From an uncultured Clostridia bacterium (GTDB lineage Bacteria; Bacillota; Clostridia; Oscillospirales; Acutalibacteraceae): 42,337 nt of DNA. The stretch spans positions 1-42,337 of the forward strand of contig CAMHMN010000017.1 in NCBI GenBank assembly GCA_946186245.1, given 5' to 3'. Positions within the stretch are counted from its first letter, which is position 1, and every line of letters starts with the position of its first letter. The notes under the pieces were generated by a model, which did no database searches, had not been told where the DNA came from, and was given only the letters and a program-made list of their open reading frames with translations. Below are positions 13,143 through 20,237 of this stretch, piece by piece. The position numbers and the translations under genes were made by a program.

Positions 13143-13188
13143 ATCCCCGCCTGCTCCGGGTCGGATTCTGCCGGGAGCGGGCGGGGAT
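13143..13188 (-). terminator. Probable terminator hairpin after the deacetylase gene
   Basis: A long GC-rich stem: ATCCCCGCC and GCTCC on one side pair with GGAGC and GGCGGGGAT on the other, around a ten-base loop, with one C-A mismatch. On the minus strand it is followed by TTCTGATTCTGCGGCTTTT, which is only moderately U-rich. It would close the CotH operon 10 bp downstream of its last stop codon. Confidence 0.55.
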
Positions 13189-13197
13189 GGAGATGCT

Positions 13198-14250
13198 TCA
13201 GGATTTGTTCCTTTTGTGCTGGATGACAACCGAGTCCTCGGTCAGGGCTTCAAAGCGGTAGCCTTGTTTCCTGAGGTATTGGATGATGGAGGGAAGGGCT
13301 TCCACCGTGGTTTTTTTGCTCTTGCCGGTGTCGTGCATGAGGACATTGATGGTCTTTTTCCTGCCTGCGCCGGCCTGGACTTTGGCCAGGAGCAGAGAAG
13401 CCTTGCGGTTGCGGCCGGAGGCGTCGGTGCTGTCCACATTCCAGTCGTGGAAATAGTAGCCCTTGTCCTCGACGCTCCTGGTCAGCTTTTTCATGATGCC
13501 CTTGCTGTATTTGTTGCTGACCGTGTTGCTGGAACCGCCGGGGAATCGGACGATTTTACTGTCCACGCCGGTGACGTCCTCGATATAATCGTGGATTTTC
13601 TTGAGATCGGCAAAATACGCCTTTTCACTCTTGTAGATCTTGCTGTAATTGTGGCTGTAGGAGTGGAGTGCGATGGTATGACCCCGTTTGACGATTTCCT
13701 TGTACCTGCTCTTCATGTTCCGGTGATAGATGACAAAGAAAGTCGCCTTTACATCGTACTTGTCCAGAATATCGAGAATCCTGACGGTATTGGCGGAAGG
13801 CCCGTCGTCAAAGGTCAGATACGCCACCTTGCCGTTGCTCTTTTTCTTCGTGGGAGGATTGCCTTCCCCCTCGATGTAGGCCAGCGAAGCCATCACCCAG
13901 CCGGTCTGGGAAGAAGTGTACTCGATCTTGTACCATTTTTTCCCTGCGGAATCATTCTCGGTGCCGAGCAGCGCGAACTTTTTCCCCCGTGACGTGCGGC
14001 CGATCTTGGCGTAAGAAGAACCCGCGCCGGAACGGACATTGACAGGGTTTCCGCTGATAATCACATATTTCCTGGCCTTGGTGGGCGAACGGTCTTCGGT
14101 GGGCGAACCGTCCTCGACAAAGCTTTCAGAGCCGGAAGTCAGGTCATTTGCATTCTCCGGCGCAGGCATGGCGCATGCGCCGAGAGCAACCGTCGCCGCA
14201 ACTGCCAACCCAAAGCACAGTATCTTCTTGATAACGGATTCAGGTTTCAT
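13198..14250 (-). CDS. Lipoprotein polysaccharide deacetylase with SH3b domain
   Basis: This 350-residue protein has a lipoprotein signal peptide (lipobox around ALGAC, Cys26), an acidic linker, a bacterial SH3b domain (about 62-130, ISGNPVNVRSGAGSSYAKIG) and a NodB deacetylase domain. Its motifs are LTFDDGPS, HSYSH for metal binding, RFPGGSS, and VLMHD near the C-terminus. It should remove acetyl groups from a surface polysaccharide or peptidoglycan outside the membrane. SD AAGGAG precedes the ATG, 36 bp after the DUF4956 gene, so it is probably the last gene of the CotH-VTC operon. Its SH3b domain closely resembles the repeats of the secreted protein at 39319-40824, suggesting a common binding target. 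Confidence 0.93.
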   Translation of the reverse strand: MKPESVIKKILCFGLAVAATVALGACAMPAPENANDLTSGSESFVEDGSPTEDRSPTKARKYVIISGNPVNVRSGAGSSYAKIGRTSRGKKFALLGTENDSAGKKWYKIEYTSSQTGWVMASLAYIEGEGNPPTKKKSNGKVAYLTFDDGPSANTVRILDILDKYDVKATFFVIYHRNMKSRYKEIVKRGHTIALHSYSHNYSKIYKSEKAYFADLKKIHDYIEDVTGVDSKIVRFPGGSSNTVSNKYSKGIMKKLTRSVEDKGYYFHDWNVDSTDASGRNRKASLLLAKVQAGAGRKKTINVLMHDTGKSKKTTVEALPSIIQYLRKQGYRFEALTEDSVVIQHKRNKS

Positions 14251-14286
14251 TTGATACGGACTCCTTGTGGGAATAGCTTGACGGGA

Positions 14287-14958
14287 TTAAAAAATCTCGC
14301 TGTCGTTTTCGACCAGGGAAGCGTCGCTGACGCATTCCAGCTTGATCAGCCTGTCGATCAGTTCGGAAGGCTTGGAAGTCTTGACTTCCACCGCGATATT
14401 CATGCCGGTCTTGGAGACGTTTCTGGCTCTGGTTCTGCTGTATCGGCAGAATTCCTTGACGACCTTCATGATGAGCTCCTCATTCGAGTGTGAATCGGCG
14501 TTGACCACCAGCACCATCGTGCTTCCCGATTTGAAGGAAGCCGAGAAGAGGATAATCAGCAGGGTGACGAAGAGGGAAGCGACCACGGCAATGCCCGCAA
14601 AGCCGGCGCCGCAGATGATGCCGGCGCTGATGGACCAGAAGAGGAAGGCAAGATCCATGGGATCCTTGATGGCGGTGCGGAAACGGACGATGGAAAGCGC
14701 GCCCACCATGCCGAGCGACACGACGATATTGGACTGAATGGTGAGAATGATAGCGGCGGTGATGACGGCGATGATCACCAGCGAGATGTTGAATCCCTTG
14801 TTGTAGAAGGAATTGCGGTTGACGATTTTGTAAATGCAATAGATGTAGACAGCGATCGCCATGGTGCATCCGATGCACACAAGCACCGTGCCGATGGTGA
14901 TGCTGCTGGTAGCGTAACCTTCCATAAATGCCTTTTTGAGCAGATCAATAAGTCCCAT
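14287..14958 (-). CDS. DUF4956 membrane protein
   Basis: This 223-residue protein has four predicted membrane helices in its first 150 residues (around IGTVLVCIGCTMAIAVYIYC, ISLVIIAVITAAIILTIQS, DLAFLFWSISAGIICGAGF and GIAVVASLFVTLLIILFS). Between helices 2 and 3 is the family's hallmark GMVGALSIVRFRTAIKDP. The C-terminal 80 residues form a soluble alpha/beta domain. DUF4956 genes are commonly found next to VTC-domain genes, and here it is 57 bp downstream of one. Its function is not established; I infer that it may form the membrane part of a polyphosphate-making complex. The ATG has GGAGGTAATTCAACA upstream. Confidence 0.9.
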   Translation of the reverse strand: MGLIDLLKKAFMEGYATSSITIGTVLVCIGCTMAIAVYIYCIYKIVNRNSFYNKGFNISLVIIAVITAAIILTIQSNIVVSLGMVGALSIVRFRTAIKDPMDLAFLFWSISAGIICGAGFAGIAVVASLFVTLLIILFSASFKSGSTMVLVVNADSHSNEELIMKVVKEFCRYSRTRARNVSKTGMNIAVEVKTSKPSELIDRLIKLECVSDASLVENDSEIF

Positions 14959-15015
14959 TGTTGAATTACCTCCGAATTAAAATAGTGTGAAATATGCAGA
15001 TATGCCTTCTGCCGC

Positions 15016-15699
15016 CTACCTGACCACAAGCCGGCAGGTGTAGTATTTGGAAAATGTACTCCACTGCAGGGTATCGAGCTGCATCATGCTTTTGATGTGG
15101 ATGGGAAGCAGCTCGTCCCACTTGACCTCGAGAATGCTTTTCCCGTCGGGCAGCACCGGGTATTCCCGGTAGCCGCGGCTGAGGAATTTCTTCGTATCGT
15201 CGGAAGCCGTGATGTTCCCGTCAAAGGTGACGCGCACGTTCCCGGCGGGATAGATGAAGGGAATGCGGCTGTAGGTGACAATGACCTTGGGCATCAGCCT
15301 GCGGGAAACCAATTCGGTGAGAAGCCGGCGTTTTTCCTCTGGCATTTCGGCCGTGATCTCGGGAAAGCCGCCGGCGCAAAGGACCTCCGCTTCGGTCTCC
15401 GTCAGTGCGCAGGAACGTTTGAGGGTCATACCGCGCCGTTTGATTTTCTTCTCCAGCCGGATGAAGGATGTGTCGTCGTCGTAATAGCGGATGCGGTATT
15501 TGGCTCTGGGGTCACAGCCCGATTCGTTCTGATAGAAGCAGGTGTCGGCAGCGTCGTCGAAGTAAAGACTGCGGATGACATAGCTGCCGTCCTCGCCCGT
15601 ATGCGGATCGGGTTTCATCAGGGGTCTAGCCTTCATGAGCAGAATCTGACGCTGCCCCCGGTCGATGAGGTATTTGTATTCGTGCCTGTATTTATCCAT
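15016..15699 (-). CDS. VTC-domain polyphosphate polymerase
   Basis: This 227-residue protein is a stand-alone VTC catalytic domain in the triphosphate tunnel fold. The charged tunnel residues known from yeast Vtc4 appear conserved: HEYKYLI (Lys9), VIRSLYFDD (Arg43), KYRIRYY (Arg69, Arg71), IRLEKKIKRRG (Glu83, Lys84-85), VTYSRIPF, VRVTFDG, and ILEVKWDELLP (Glu191, Lys193). It would make polyphosphate from ATP on the cytosolic face. It has no membrane segment, in contrast to the eukaryotic VTC complex. Its ATG overlaps the stop of the DUF4353 lipoprotein gene by 8 bp, indicating coupled translation, and the DUF4956 membrane protein follows. Activity is inferred from motifs only. Confidence 0.92.
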   Translation of the reverse strand: MDKYRHEYKYLIDRGQRQILLMKARPLMKPDPHTGEDGSYVIRSLYFDDAADTCFYQNESGCDPRAKYRIRYYDDDTSFIRLEKKIKRRGMTLKRSCALTETEAEVLCAGGFPEITAEMPEEKRRLLTELVSRRLMPKVIVTYSRIPFIYPAGNVRVTFDGNITASDDTKKFLSRGYREYPVLPDGKSILEVKWDELLPIHIKSMMQLDTLQWSTFSKYYTCRLVVR

Positions 15700-16552
15700 T
15701 GGTCAGACACCCTTCCTCGATGAAGATATCGTGCTCCGCCTTGGTGTTGGACATAACGCCCTTGAGGAACGCCCTGCTGGAAACCATATAGATGCTGCGC
15801 GAAGCGTTGAGGGCGTGTTCTCCGGCAATGACCGAGAGCTTTGTGTCGGATATTTCTATGTTGCCCTTGCGCACCTTGCCGGCTTTGGTGGTGCGGATGC
15901 CGCATTTCTCAGCCTCCACGGAAACATCCGCGCCGCAGATCAGAATGCCGTCATTGCCGTGAAGCGCGTCGTCCTTTGCCCTTGCAAAGAGGGTGACGTC
16001 GGAGATCCTGAGATAATCCTTGGTGTGAATCGCGTCCTTGTAATAGCCGGAAACGGAGAGACTGCCTCCGCCGTTTATGGTGAGGTCGCACATGCTGAAG
16101 ATACAGCCGTCGCAGACGTCGCTGATATACTTGCTGCCGTCCGCCAATGTGTTTTCACTTCCGGATTCCACCGTGATGACGACCTTGCCGGCAGATTCAA
16201 TATGGATAGCCGGAGCGGTGACGGATTTGACCTTCACACCGTTGAGAAAGAGATGCACGATCTGTTCCTCGGCATTGATGTGAATGCTGCCGTTCATCTC
16301 CCCGCGCAGCCGGTAATCGCCCGCGTCGGTAATGAGCAGTTCCTCTCCCGCCGCGCCCAGGTCAATCTCCTTTGCGCTGCCGGAGGAAGTGCGTCTGTCT
16401 TCCCGCGTCATTTCAATGACCGGTTTGACGACGTTTTCGCCTTTTTCGGCGTCGGTTCCCGACTGAAACAGCGAACAGCCCGTGAGAGCGCCTGCCGCGA
16501 CGAAGGCAGCCATCAGCAGCGCGACCGGCTTAATCCTTTTCAAAAATCGCAT
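15692..16552 (-). CDS. DUF4353 carbohydrate-binding-type lipoprotein
   Basis: This 286-residue exported lipoprotein has a signal peptide with lipobox ALTGC (Cys near residue 26). The rest is a repetitive beta-rich domain, with short turns such as INGGGSLSVSG, KDAIHTKDYLRIS and KDDALHGNDGIL, that matches the DUF4353 'carbohydrate-binding domain-containing' family and probably forms a right-handed beta-helix. The ATG at 16550-16552 has GGAGG upstream; an in-frame GTG 12 bases earlier overlaps that site. It overlaps the end of the CotH-type gene by 23 bp and the start of the VTC gene by 8 bp, so the three are tightly coupled. The ligand is unknown. Confidence 0.88.
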   Translation of the reverse strand: MRFLKRIKPVALLMAAFVAAGALTGCSLFQSGTDAEKGENVVKPVIEMTREDRRTSSGSAKEIDLGAAGEELLITDAGDYRLRGEMNGSIHINAEEQIVHLFLNGVKVKSVTAPAIHIESAGKVVITVESGSENTLADGSKYISDVCDGCIFSMCDLTINGGGSLSVSGYYKDAIHTKDYLRISDVTLFARAKDDALHGNDGILICGADVSVEAEKCGIRTTKAGKVRKGNIEISDTKLSVIAGEHALNASRSIYMVSSRAFLKGVMSNTKAEHDIFIEEGCLTNG

Positions 16553-19079
16553 TGAGTGTAACACCTCCGTTTACTGAAATATCTATGGCAGCGTCGGTTT
16601 TTCCGTCCGACCAGCCTGCGAAATGATAGCCCGGATGGGGGATCGCGGTGACGGACACGTCGTATTCGGTGAAGTACCTGCCCGTCCAGCTTCCGTCCGA
16701 GAGATCGATCACCGACGTATTGACCCGGACGCTGCCGGCTTCGGGCTGATCCGTGGTAATTGTCAGCTCGTCCGTGCTGTTTTTCAGGCCGAATTCCTTG
16801 GCGGTGAAGGCAATCATGTTATCGGGACGGTCGCGGAAGAAATACTGATGCCAGCTGATGTCCTGCCCGTATTTTTCCAGAAGGGCGGACATGCGTTCTT
16901 CGGTAAAATCGGTGTTGATCATGTCCATCATGGAAAGGACGAACTGCCTGCGGAATCCGGGATTGGCCTTGAGTGCGCAGTAGATCACCCGTTCGTTGAC
17001 GGGCGGATCCCAGTCGCACACGATATTGAATGTATCGAGCTGCGCGTCGGTGATATTGGTCAGCCCGTAATTGTAGCGGCAGCCGGCGGTCTGGAGATCC
17101 ATGTCGTAGAAAGCCCAGCGCCAGCGACCGTCGCCGTAGGAATCGTTTTCCTTGGTGGTGGTACGCCACATGGCGGTATTGGCAATTTCGTTGTAGTCGG
17201 TGTTGCCGAGATAGACGTTGGAACAGATATAGTCGATGTAGCTCTGGATATCCACCATCTTATCGAATTGATCATAGTTCTCCTGTACCGAAAGATCGTG
17301 GCTGTCGAGGAAATCCCTGATTTCATCGGTAATGCCGACCTTGAGGAATTCGACATTTTCCACGCCGAAGGTCTGGCGGAAGTAGGTGTTGTTGTATTTT
17401 TCCTGCATAAAGGTGTCGTACCAGTATTCGCCGTTGAGATAGACCTTGACGGGAAGGCTTTCCAGCACAGCCACATCCCTGTCGGGAACGGTGTACATGC
17501 TGAGCGCGTTTTCCAATCCGTCGCGCAGCATGACGGAATGAGTGGCCTTTCCCTTGAAGAATTGGGTGGGGAAGGTGCTGCGTCCGCTGTATTCCTTGCG
17601 GGAGAATACCGAGAAGCGTTTGAGGGGCAGCCAGCGGGTGGAACCGCCCTGAATTCTCAGCCCTCCGTCCTGGCAGAAGGTGAGCTTCCTGCCGTCGGCG
17701 AAGTATTCGACGCTGACGGGACATTCGGTGCCCTTGATGTCGAAATTGGCGGTAGGCCGGTCGCCGCTGCCGCCTCCGAGGTACCAATCGTCGTACTGCT
17801 TGCCGGTGACGTACATGCCGTTTTCGCCAAAGAGCGCTTCATCGTCCGCCGCAAGCGAGATGACCGCGACGTCGGTGTCAAATCGCTCCCCCACAAAATA
17901 GGAAGCGCAGGCCTGTTCGCTCACGGCGCCGTGGGAATCCGTTGCCACCGCCCTGACCAGGAACGCCTTATCGACCGGCTCGGTGAAGGGCTGGTAATTC
18001 TTCCAGTCGTACACGATGTTCTGGAGGGAACGTCTGGTATTGGGCTGGCTGCTCCTGTCGGTCACGCGGATGGGTTTGTCATATACGGGAGAATCCTTTG
18101 TGGGGAGCGTGCCGTCGGTGGTGTAATGAATTTCGGTTCCCTCCTCCGCAGTGAGCGTGAGGTCGAATTCGTCCGCATAGTAACCCGCCTCGACCGAGAA
18201 AACCGGCTTTTGCACAATGGCGGCTGAAGCGGCGTTGTTTTCGCCGGGCGTCGGGTGCATATAATTCCAGCTGTCTGTATTGTCCACACGGCAGTAGGAA
18301 TAGCTGCCGTCGCGCGGTTTGTCTGCCACGACCCTGTCAATGATCCTGCCGGTGCCGTCGGAGAGAATCACCACGCTGCCGCCGGATTTGCTGAGGGTGA
18401 AAACTTCCTTGTTGAGGGGAATCAGCAGCAGTTCACCGGCGCCGGCCAGGTTGTCCGGCAGTGCGTATTTTTTGAGGTTGTCCTCCTCGTTGCTGAGGAA
18501 AAGTCCCCTTGTGCGGCAGGGAAGGGAAGCCTCGTTGAAGAGCTCGATGTAACCGCCGTCGGACACCCTGCCCACTTTGGCGTCACAGACCTCGTTGAAC
18601 TTCAGGTGTCTGACGCCGCTTGTGCAGAAGGCCATGGAAGCGATGATGACGATTCCGAGAAGGCACAGGTCAAACGTCATCATAACGCCCATGGAACGGC
18701 GTTTTTCCGGAGGAATAAAGGGCTTGTCGTCCCCCAGACGGGAAAGCACCGTCGCTCTGATGGCAAAGCCCATGGCGGCGGCAAGGGGAATCCAGAGCAG
18801 CAGAATGCCGTAGATAAATTCCAGCGACTGATAGCTCAGCTGCCTGTTCACCGTCATTCTCAGGGTTCTGAGAATATCTCCGCTCCCTCTGAAAATCAGA
18901 TGAAGCAGCCATAGGAAAGCGGCATTGCAGAGAAGGCCTGCCGCAATGACCGCCAGTCTGATCATCCGTGCTCTTCTGGGGTCGTCGGGACAATAGGGCA
19001 GATCCGCGATCAGGATACTGATAGCGGATACCGCAATAAGAATTGCTGTCATGGACACAAGGGCAATTGTGAATGCCAT
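16530..19079 (-). CDS. CotH-type kinase with membrane, lamin-tail and chitobiase-like domains
   Basis: This 849-residue protein has four N-terminal membrane segments (within residues 1-155). A lamin-tail domain follows (about 158-275, FNEVCDAKVG and GGYIELFN), then a chitobiase-type beta domain (about 300-375, IHYTTDGTLPT) and a CotH kinase domain (about 395-745) with LRIQGGSTRWLPLKRFS and the metal-binding WAFYDMDLQTAG. The C-terminus is an InlB-like repeat (YHFAGWSDG). CotH proteins are atypical protein kinases, best known from Bacillus spore coats. The kinase domain would lie outside the membrane here. The start has only a weak ribosome binding site. It is the first gene of a five-gene operon and has a consensus promoter at 19128-19156. 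Confidence 0.9.
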   Translation of the reverse strand: MAFTIALVSMTAILIAVSAISILIADLPYCPDDPRRARMIRLAVIAAGLLCNAAFLWLLHLIFRGSGDILRTLRMTVNRQLSYQSLEFIYGILLLWIPLAAAMGFAIRATVLSRLGDDKPFIPPEKRRSMGVMMTFDLCLLGIVIIASMAFCTSGVRHLKFNEVCDAKVGRVSDGGYIELFNEASLPCRTRGLFLSNEEDNLKKYALPDNLAGAGELLLIPLNKEVFTLSKSGGSVVILSDGTGRIIDRVVADKPRDGSYSYCRVDNTDSWNYMHPTPGENNAASAAIVQKPVFSVEAGYYADEFDLTLTAEEGTEIHYTTDGTLPTKDSPVYDKPIRVTDRSSQPNTRRSLQNIVYDWKNYQPFTEPVDKAFLVRAVATDSHGAVSEQACASYFVGERFDTDVAVISLAADDEALFGENGMYVTGKQYDDWYLGGGSGDRPTANFDIKGTECPVSVEYFADGRKLTFCQDGGLRIQGGSTRWLPLKRFSVFSRKEYSGRSTFPTQFFKGKATHSVMLRDGLENALSMYTVPDRDVAVLESLPVKVYLNGEYWYDTFMQEKYNNTYFRQTFGVENVEFLKVGITDEIRDFLDSHDLSVQENYDQFDKMVDIQSYIDYICSNVYLGNTDYNEIANTAMWRTTTKENDSYGDGRWRWAFYDMDLQTAGCRYNYGLTNITDAQLDTFNIVCDWDPPVNERVIYCALKANPGFRRQFVLSMMDMINTDFTEERMSALLEKYGQDISWHQYFFRDRPDNMIAFTAKEFGLKNSTDELTITTDQPEAGSVRVNTSVIDLSDGSWTGRYFTEYDVSVTAIPHPGYHFAGWSDGKTDAAIDISVNGGVTLNAIFEKD

Positions 19080-19127
19080 ATTTCACATCACATCATTTCG
19101 CAAAAAAATCAGAATGTATCTTATATA

Positions 19128-19156
19128 ATTATAGGTACTATTTATAAAAAAGTCAA
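19128..19156 (-). promoter_or_regulatory. Sigma-A type promoter of the CotH-DUF4353-VTC-DUF4956-deacetylase operon
   Basis: On the minus strand -35 TTGACT (19151-19156), 17-bp spacer, perfect -10 TATAAT (19128-19133), about 50 bp before the CotH-type start. The vegetative-type promoter argues against strictly sporulation-specific expression. Confidence 0.85.
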
Positions 19157-19181
19157 TATGGAAGAGGAAATGATCGGTATC

Positions 19182-19230
19182 AAAAAAAACGCGGCAAGAC
19201 TCCGGAATTCGCACCGGGGATCCTGCCGCG
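19182..19230 (-). terminator. Rho-independent terminator of the lipoprotein pair
   Basis: On the minus strand CGCGGCAGGA pairs with TCTTGCCGCG, with an inner CCGG/CCGG stem, followed by eight T residues (19182-19189). It lies 12 bp after the stop of the 19242-19715 gene. Confidence 0.93.
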
Positions 19231-19241
19231 TGATAGGATGA

Positions 19242-19715
19242 TTAATATTTGAATTTATTCAGGAACTTGTCGATGATTTCTTTGTTTTCTTCGTCCGTGG
19301 GAGGAACGTAAACCATTGTATTTTCAATATAGGACACCATGAGATACTTGCCGTTGGTCACGACGGTACGCCTTGCGTAATTCTTGCCGTTGGAACTCGT
19401 GCCGGTATAGTCTGCGTTCTTATATCCGTCGACGACCTCGCTCTGAGCCAGATAAAGATTCTTAGCGTTATCCCTGTCGGTGATCACATAGAATTCGATC
19501 TGAAACTCACGGCCGGAAGGCGCCACGACGGTTGCTTCCCTGATCTGAGGAGCGTTGATGTACTGCTCGGTTATGTCGTATATCTCAAAGTCAAACTCCT
19601 TGGCAACCTGTTTGAATGCCGCCGTATCGGAGGGAGTCTTATTACACGACGTCAGAACCGCAGCCAGCATGATGACAGCCAGCACAACGGCTGTCAACCG
19701 GACTGTTTTTCTCAT
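19242..19715 (-). CDS. Small lipoprotein, paralogue of the upstream gene
   Basis: This 157-residue lipoprotein has a signal peptide ending in lipobox VLTSC (Cys24). The mature domain is a small alpha/beta fold; it shares with the 19758-20237 product the core pattern FQIEFYVITDRDNAKNLY, the late VSYIENTMVYVPPTDEENK, and the C-terminal FLNKFKY. This recalls proteins annotated only as 'hypothetical lipoprotein' in clostridia. RBS AAAGGGAATG precedes the ATG. It is 42 bp downstream of its paralogue and ends in a strong terminator. Its function is unknown; a surface or stress role is only a guess. Confidence 0.85.
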   Translation of the reverse strand: MRKTVRLTAVVLAVIMLAAVLTSCNKTPSDTAAFKQVAKEFDFEIYDITEQYINAPQIREATVVAPSGREFQIEFYVITDRDNAKNLYLAQSEVVDGYKNADYTGTSSNGKNYARRTVVTNGKYLMVSYIENTMVYVPPTDEENKEIIDKFLNKFKY

Positions 19716-19757: not shown

Positions 19758-20237
19758 TTAGTACTTCAGCTCGTTCAAAAAGCTCTCAATCGAAGTCTTA
19801 TTGGTGCTGTCGGTTGAAGGAACATAGACGACGGTATTCTGCACGCGTTCAATCATCATGAACTTCCCGTACACTTCCAGCTTATAGAGGTCAAAGTTGC
19901 TCCCCGAGTCGGATTTGTCGATGGAGTCTTCACCCTTCATCATGACAAAATTATTCTTGTTGCTGTTATAGAAAGACTTGGCGGTATCTTCGCTGTTCAG
20001 CTCATAGAATTCAATCTGAAAAGCCTTATCCTGGGGCGCGGCAAGGGTGACAAGTTTGATGTAATCATAATCCTTGAAATAATCCGTGCCATCCTGCACA
20101 ATATAGCCCTTCTGCGCGGCGGTTGCTTCGAAATCAACCGTTGAAACAGGATCTTTGCTGCCACAGGCTGTGAGCAGTGAAGCAGTCAATGCAACGGCAG
20201 CAAGCAGACAAGCCGCTTTTATTCTAAAAGATTTCAT
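19758..20237 (-). CDS. Small lipoprotein, first of a paralogous pair
   Basis: This 159-residue lipoprotein has lipobox LLTAC (Cys25). It aligns with the next gene along its whole length: FQIEFYELNSEDTAKSFY, MMIERVQNTVVYVPSTDSTN and a C-terminal FLNELKY. The pair therefore comes from a local duplication that has diverged. I know no function for the family. It has its own promoter at 20283-20311, and AGAGGAAGCGCTGAAT upstream of the ATG provides a ribosome binding site. Together the two genes form a two-gene operon ending at the 19182-19230 terminator. Confidence 0.87.
   Translation of the reverse strand: MKSFRIKAACLLAAVALTASLLTACGSKDPVSTVDFEATAAQKGYIVQDGTDYFKDYDYIKLVTLAAPQDKAFQIEFYELNSEDTAKSFYNSNKNNFVMMKGEDSIDKSDSGSNFDLYKLEVYGKFMMIERVQNTVVYVPSTDSTNKTSIESFLNELKY

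Follow-up and report, generated by a model that had tools for sequence, protein, structure and literature searches.

The window analysed here, a 42,337-nucleotide stretch of contig CAMHMN010000017.1 from an uncultured Clostridia bacterium (assembly GCA_946186245.1), contains five co-directional minus-strand genes encoding a CotH-like protein, a Cthe_2159 (old DUF4353) lipoprotein, a VTC protein, a DUF4956 protein and an SH3_3-deacetylase (Table 1). The source assembly comprises 2.6 Mb in 107 contigs and is 87% complete, and the operon lies inside contig C17 (C-numbers denote contigs of this genome and L-numbers surveyed loci). A reading made from the sequence alone had suggested that the five genes may work as one surface-modifying system. 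The four-gene operon from CotH to DUF4956 is a conserved variant of a known, poorly understood module.

Two of the four junctions overlap, joining the first three genes, and the remaining gaps of 57 and 36 nt carry Shine-Dalgarno-like GGAGG and AAGGAG motifs, in agreement with the overlapping or closely spaced genes of the sequence-only reading. The single consensus promoter that it had named is also present, and the sister locus L143 has TTGACA-17-TATAAT (12/12) at the matching position. Promoter-like sites of at least 11/12 numbered four in the whole window, compared with a total of 2 in ten mononucleotide shuffles, none of which had more than one. The promoter scan listed no minus-strand promoter-like site within the five genes. 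The hairpin that separates the operon from the lipoprotein gene upstream (-27.9 kcal/mol, z -4.5) was equalled in stability by none of 200 shuffles. The hairpin after the last stop, previously called terminator-like, is a stable fold (-37.1 kcal/mol), but equal stability was reached by 6 of 200 shuffles (z -2.3), and it has no clear U-tract. Neither hairpin was among the 6 terminator-like sites that a simple scan detected, a number not above the 7.6 expected. From the sequence, we infer that the five genes are transcribed as a single unit.

Table 1. Coordinates of the operon genes and flanking signals in the window.
Feature	Position	Strand	Description
CotH-family membrane protein	16530..19079	(-)	849 aa; Pfam CotH 60.6 bits
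Cthe_2159 (DUF4353) lipoprotein	15692..16564	(-)	290 aa; start codon GTG, with ATG at 16552 as an alternative; Pfam PF14262
VTC polyphosphate-polymerase-type protein	15016..15699	(-)	227 aa, without transmembrane segment; Pfam PF09359
DUF4956	14287..14958	(-)	223 aa; MgtC relative; one N-terminal helix and five membrane helices, then an ACT-like domain at the C-terminus
SH3_3 + polysaccharide deacetylase lipoprotein	13198..14250	(-)	350 aa; co-directional, non-conserved member
Sigma-A-type promoter TTGACT-N17-TATAAT	19128..19156	(-)	consensus scan; counterpart in sister L143
Terminator-type hairpin 19231-19189 + U8	19181..19231	(-)	between upstream lipoprotein gene and operon
GC-rich hairpin 3' of last stop	13143..13188	(-)	weak terminator candidate

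The distribution of these families was surveyed in 148 genomes of the class and 14 control genomes. VTC was present in 76 class genomes and DUF4956 in 73; 72 had both, four had VTC alone and one had DUF4956 alone. The linkage tally in the class used all listed VTC and DUF4956 rows together with 110 CotH and 80 Cthe_2159 rows, extra stretches of the same gene being omitted. DUF4956 was found within 1 kb on the same strand at 87 of 98 VTC places, and VTC within 5 kb at 88 of 96 DUF4956 places. Among the control genomes, for which presence only was scored, both families occurred in the same three (Bacteroides, Corynebacterium and Methanosarcina). Adjacent VTC and DUF4956 genes were also observed in Planococcus and in the actinomycete Nonomuraea, followed in each by CotH, and in Paenibacillus, where Cthe_2159 follows and two-component genes lie on the opposite strand. 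The core of the module is VTC and DUF4956, not five genes.

The VTC and DUF4956 trees agreed (r 0.937) for 166 of 167 pairs, those at least 1.5 kb apart centre to centre having been dropped, so that L143 is absent. Because some genomes hold several VTC-DUF4956 pairs, a host-free control was possible. For 32 pairs in 14 genomes, the tree-distance correlation was 0.933, compared with a mean of 0.167 for within-genome swaps, and 0 of 2000 swaps was as high. This partner fidelity shows co-inheritance of the VTC-DUF4956 pair, not contact.

The third gene is variable. CotH was located within 5 kb on the same strand at 41 of the 98 VTC places and Cthe_2159 at 26, with both solely at the window; the two types alternate over these places, and the lineage of the window unites them. 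Which partner is present depends on the subfamily, with 33 label changes in the VTC tree and 32 in the DUF4956 tree versus approximately 67 in shuffles (minimum 60). In a scan of named genomes for DUF4956 relatives, the best 80 of at least 584 stretches were kept (the best-80 set). Neighbours were labelled with home-made profiles; the sensitivity of those built from one sequence is low, and the absence of a deacetylase or polysaccharide label therefore counts for little. The nearest relatives by DUF4956 in this set were L143 (Clostridiales RUG198, 85% identity) and L123 (Clostridia, 80%), both uncultured assemblies. The window order of CotH, Cthe_2159, VTC and DUF4956 recurred in nine of the 80 loci (L123, L124, L126-L129, L131, L132 and L143), and L125 has the same four genes in a different order. 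Ten both-partner loci were present in the trees and fell into one clade of 11 tips per tree (support 0.77 and 0.97); because they form one clade, the window represents a lineage that united CotH and Cthe_2159.

The expectation that CotH, VTC and DUF4956 co-occur beyond this strain was borne out in the class survey and the best-80 loci. A conserved order of all five families, which had been proposed as a check, was found for the four genes above but not for the deacetylase, which directly follows DUF4956 in the window and in one of the 80 loci, sister L143; at none of the other 79 did the deacetylase profile match near DUF4956. The source genome has nine places with a deacetylase domain. On these two grounds the five-gene unit was rejected as far as the deacetylase is concerned. 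The deacetylase itself scored 102.3 bits, above the Pfam cut-off, and its best solved relative is a peptidoglycan N-acetylglucosamine deacetylase.

The VTC protein scored 129.6 bits against Pfam PF09359 (cut-off 23), and 166 of 167 VTC proteins have no transmembrane segment. Its residues K9, R69, R71, K85, K94, Y143, R145 and R156 align with K200, R264, R266, K281, K294, Y359, R361 and R373 of Vtc4, respectively, and the eight tunnel-type residues covered by the alignment were invariant in 40 sequences. The six aligned Vtc4 residues other than R264 and R266 are presumably catalytic. R264 and R266 are required for polyphosphate synthesis in yeast (PMC8749416).

DUF4956 scored 46.5 bits against PF16316 (cut-off 30.6). 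The AlphaFold2 model (mean predicted local distance difference test score 85.2, predicted template modelling score 0.71) consists of five membrane helices and a beta-alpha-beta-beta-alpha-beta domain. The score against MgtC/SapB (PF02308) was 20.2 bits, below the cut-off of 31.4. In hhalign, DUF4956 aligned with an MgtC profile at 97% over 193 columns, including the ACT-like part, with 16% identity, four of the 14 MgtC extracts being short fragments. Because its score lies under the PF02308 cut-off, DUF4956 counts as a relative, not a member, of MgtC/SapB. Two basic residues (R92 and R94) and one acidic residue (D102), located in the best-conserved helices 3 and 4, were kept in 35 of 35 sequences. 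Natural VTC-DUF4956 fusions were not noticed in the gene maps, in which no formal search was made. Our literature search, with poor coverage of subscription journals, found no biochemical study of bacterial VTC or DUF4956. Three unannotated human-faecal phage records also match DUF4956, with 34-41% identity.

The N-terminus of the window CotH has four predicted helices, and the protein contains CHB_HEX_C_1 (297-341), Fn3_assoc (307-387) and Flg_new_2 (796-848) regions, as well as a lamin-tail-like stretch seen by eye and without a Pfam match. The Pfam CotH match exceeds the family cut-off but covers residues 594-742 (positions 155-285 only of the 322 in PF08757), and the alignment suggests a domain of about 400-780. 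A profile of 18 CotH sequences including the window's matched the Bacillus CotH structure 5jd9 (E 1.3e-39). Catalytic-type residues are N626, D628, D659 and D661. D628 and D659 were taken, by equal spacing, as the presumptive counterparts of D228 and D251 of B. subtilis CotH, in which mutants at either position are inactive (PMC7821199). All 19 close relatives have D at both positions; in the wider set of 18, D occurs in 16 and 18, respectively. An N-terminal signal or transmembrane segment was detected in 102 of 107 complete CotH partners, genes running off locus ends being omitted, and 13 of them, including the one at the C53 locus of the source genome, have a lipobox-like motif. With VTC lacking membrane segments, DUF4956 in the membrane and most CotH partners bearing an export signal or N-terminal helix, the description of a surface-directed gene set is upheld. 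The vegetative-type promoter, matched in L143, and the export signals on most CotH partners also agree with the earlier argument against a spore-coat-only system, and a spore-coat reading is not favoured.

The Cthe_2159 lipoprotein scored 168 bits against PF14262 (cut-off 25.8), has a lipobox (LTGC, by eye) and matched structure 4peu over residues 16-287 (E 2.4e-20, 76 bits). Ten of its relatives come from loci with both CotH and Cthe_2159. Members of this family have been described as having a beta-helix fold and binding to cellulose and polygalacturonic acid (PMC6712302).

Related gene sets were found beside polysaccharide genes at several loci. Naming by Pfam was limited to the Pel genes of L072, the NELoc-2-like genes of L063 and the downstream genes of L127, and the corresponding genes of sister loci were assigned from their sequence cluster or from their length and initial residues. 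L072 carries DUF2194, PelF and PelG, then CotH-VTC-DUF4956, and the same gene clusters are present in L089 and L106. CotH-VTC-DUF4956 in L063 is followed by a 723 aa protein, a HEAT protein and a GT2 glycosyltransferase, with the same clusters in L065, L071, L074 and L081. At L127, the four-gene set precedes a nucleotidyltransferase, a GH25 gene, an ABC-2 exporter and a Wzt-type ATPase, and the first downstream genes of L129 and L131 look like those of L127. On Pseudobutyrivibrio plasmid pNP95, CotH-VTC-DUF4956 lies among glycosyl-, acyl- and pyruvyltransferases of an exopolysaccharide cluster. Cultured bacteria with the trio include Pseudobutyrivibrio xylanivorans and Kineothrix alysoides (L135).

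It has been reported that cotH, a polyphosphate polymerase gene, DUF4956 and DUF4832 are contiguous with pelDEADAFG in Pel loci of streptococci and clostridia (PMC7112168). Each Pel accessory gene of Streptococcus intermedius has been deleted singly. Aggregation in artificial sputum fell by more than half in the knock-outs of both the DUF4956 and the CotH homologues, with Pel increased in the former and decreased in the latter (PMC12345266). The sequence-only reading knew of no assigned joint function; a Pel accessory role has in fact been described (PMC7112168), and the knock-outs have been done (PMC12345266). The authors of the latter report stated that they did not find the trio arrangement outside the Pel locus (PMC12345266). 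Our class survey disagrees with this statement. PelG exceeded its cut-off in six of the 148 genomes (a seventh was below it), and 32 of 39 loci with CotH, VTC and DUF4956 were in genomes without a PelG match, that is, in 26 of 31 genomes, 24 of the 26 being listed as at least 94% complete.

The source genome has three further VTC-DUF4956 pairs, on C49 with Cthe_2159, on C53 with a lipoprotein-type CotH and on C18 with neither (L062, L115 and L116). Its Pel-like cluster is split over two contig ends (C78 and C16; L208 4055-7731 and L207 1481-10561), with a PelG match at each. On C78, DUF2194- and PelF-type genes precede the PelG match; on C16, PelG is followed by two GT8-like genes, an SDR-domain PelD-like gene and a PelE-like gene, these four being named by eye. 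The Pel accessory gene row of CotH, VTC and DUF4956 is present in the window, but the published contiguity with pelDEADAFG is not seen, PelG being on C16 and C78 and the operon on C17. The genome also has PPK1 (on C20), and Ppx-GppA gave no match in this 87% complete assembly. The notion of VTC as a PPK1 substitute was not supported, as the two show no anticorrelation (PPK1 in 28 of 76 genomes with VTC and 18 of 72 without, p 0.16). Upstream of the operon, two tandem small lipoprotein genes (19242-19715, 157 aa; 19758-20237, 159 aa) gave no significant Pfam match, and L143 has a similar tandem pair. A related small lipoprotein gene (L120 6539-7057, contig C7) adjoins an unpaired DUF4956 that is 46% identical to the window's.

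Related gene sets adjoin sticky-polysaccharide genes in some other bacteria, and the operon therefore probably has a role in tuning the cell surface. We regard it as likely that the module serves a surface polymer with VTC and DUF4956 as its working pair, and we give even odds to the operon being an enlarged, stand-alone representative of a widespread cell-surface module built on this core. In the mechanism that we propose, VTC, as a soluble cytoplasmic enzyme, would make polyphosphate from ATP at the inner membrane face. Its fixed partner DUF4956, a membrane protein of the MgtC type that carries an ACT-like domain, would anchor, gate or pass the product. Outside the cell, CotH, as an exported protein with a kinase fold, and the Cthe_2159 lipoprotein may act on the surface polysaccharide or its proteins, and the module would thereby tune the amount and stickiness of the surface polymer. 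That the pair both makes polyphosphate and moves it outward is a tentative suggestion. In a bolder version, which we consider improbable, the two proteins would form a bacterial machine for both the synthesis of polyphosphate and its passage across the membrane, as a split counterpart of the eukaryotic VTC complex. The exported third gene would then supply the outside receiver, either CotH as a polyphosphate-fed (not ATP-fed) kinase or Cthe_2159 as a calcium/polyanion-binding scaffold.

Several observations weigh against the proposed mechanism. The main one against polyphosphate export and a polyphosphate-fed kinase is the S. intermedius VTC deletion, for which no change in aggregation is reported (PMC12345266). 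Pel was still produced without any accessory gene, and the known role of MgtC is regulatory, not that of a polymer channel (PMC12345266). VTC does not replace PPK1, which the source genome has. At 23 of the 98 VTC places DUF4956 was accompanied by neither CotH nor Cthe_2159 within 5 kb, none of the three was there at a further 9, and L130 (5597-9675) is a natural VTC-less version in which CotH, Cthe_2159 and DUF4956 are adjacent without a VTC match. Linkage alone would yield much of the tree agreement. As lone queries against PDB, the window VTC found no chain at all and the window CotH no CotH structure at E up to 1; matches came only with profiles that included relatives. The side of the membrane on which the window CotH domain lies is uncertain, given the four predicted N-terminal helices. 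The neighbour tally compared 139 of 166 near neighbours (those in the same gene run) with 149 of 454 far ones. Response regulators and kinases numbered 15 and 14 of the 139 near neighbours of class loci but five and five of the 149 far ones, and glycosyltransferases were a minority among the near set. The idea of polysaccharide genes as general neighbours is thus only partly true: most class loci do not adjoin them, and two-component genes lead the tally.

These neighbours would suit a pair that works as a sensor-regulator instead of an exporter, with the ACT-like domain of the MgtC-type protein reading phosphate, ATP or polyphosphate and setting the rate of polysaccharide synthesis. The alignment of DUF4956 with MgtC through the ACT-like part, the modelled order of helices and then an ACT-like domain, the action of Salmonella MgtC on ATP synthase and PhoR, and the DUF4956 knock-out that makes more Pel yet aggregates less (PMC12345266) all point the same way. 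Sensing alone leaves unexplained both a near-constant polymerase partner with kept catalytic residues and a third gene that is often an exported kinase or beta-helix protein, and we hold this possibility at the same tentative level as polyphosphate export. VTC may also make a product other than inorganic polyphosphate, for example by phosphate transfer to a glycan or lipid carrier, with the tunnel fold reused. Bacterial VTC proteins share E7, K67 and K87, invariant in the 40 sequences and absent from Vtc4; the lack of a reported aggregation phenotype in the VTC knock-out (PMC12345266) and the presence of PPK1 are in keeping with such a product. All eight aligned tunnel-type residues are kept, however, and we find this change of product unlikely.

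The operon could instead be the Pel accessory set of its own genome, acting in trans on the Pel-like cluster. The fetched stretches of C78 and C16 (18.3 kb) contain no match to CotH, VTC or DUF4956, all six genomes with PelG above the cut-off have VTC, and an epimerase-type PelD accompanies cotH/polymerase/DUF4956 genes in print (PMC7112168). Against this, most trio loci lie in genomes without a PelG match, and therefore the module does not need Pel; moreover, the three further VTC-DUF4956 pairs of the source genome could serve Pel. We think a role in trans rather unlikely. Chance neighbours under one promoter, without joint function, describe the deacetylase, but for VTC, DUF4956, CotH and Cthe_2159 the linkage across many genomes and more than one phylum, plus the partner fidelity, makes this explanation highly implausible.

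VTC is present in about half of the sampled class genomes (76/148), mostly beside DUF4956, and the literature that we found assigns the pair no biochemical function. The survey recasts the Pel accessory genes as a module of general and portable character, in which the core is fixed and the partners can be exchanged, and it makes the product of bacterial VTC and the phosphate source of the exported kinase testable.

Among known systems, the Pel accessory genes SIR_1594-1591 of S. intermedius (cotH, PPP, DUF4956 and DUF4832) resemble the window in having contiguous genes for CotH, a VTC-type polymerase and DUF4956; as in the window module, CotH is secreted and DUF4956 is MgtC-like with an ACT domain. 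The window differs in having no adjoining Pel gene, no DUF4832 among its five genes and an added Cthe_2159 lipoprotein, and its CotH bears CHB_HEX and InlB-like parts as well as four N-terminal helices. Clostridium perfringens NELoc-2, like the window, clusters the genes for CotH, VTC and a membrane protein similar in size to DUF4956 (PMC2879425, PMC11677781). In clusters of the NELoc-2 type, including the similar loci L063, L065, L071, L074 and L081, CotH precedes a glycosyltransferase, a HEAT-repeat protein and a protein of 685-729 aa, which the window's five genes do not include; the 685-729 aa protein comes first after CotH, then the HEAT-repeat protein and the glycosyltransferase. Two NELoc-2 proteins of 226 and 222 aa, annotated as tubulin/FtsZ GTPases, each follow a VTC gene and, from their size, may be DUF4956 (PMC2879425). 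The eukaryotic VTC complex (Vtc4 with Vtc1/2/3) has polymerase residues in common with the window VTC, and in both a membrane part accompanies the polymerase; in the window, VTC lacks an SPX domain, and the polymerase is encoded apart from its membrane partner. That partner is MgtC-like, whereas the membrane part of the eukaryotic complex is a Vtc1-type domain. Bacillus spore-coat CotH shares the kinase-fold family and the catalytic-type Asp pair with the window CotH, which differs in being membrane-tied and multidomain, with a vegetative-type promoter and partial coverage of the Pfam profile. Cthe_2159 of Clostridium thermocellum (4peu, 4phb) is matched by the window lipoprotein, whose gene, unlike its counterpart, stands in an operon with VTC, DUF4956 and CotH.

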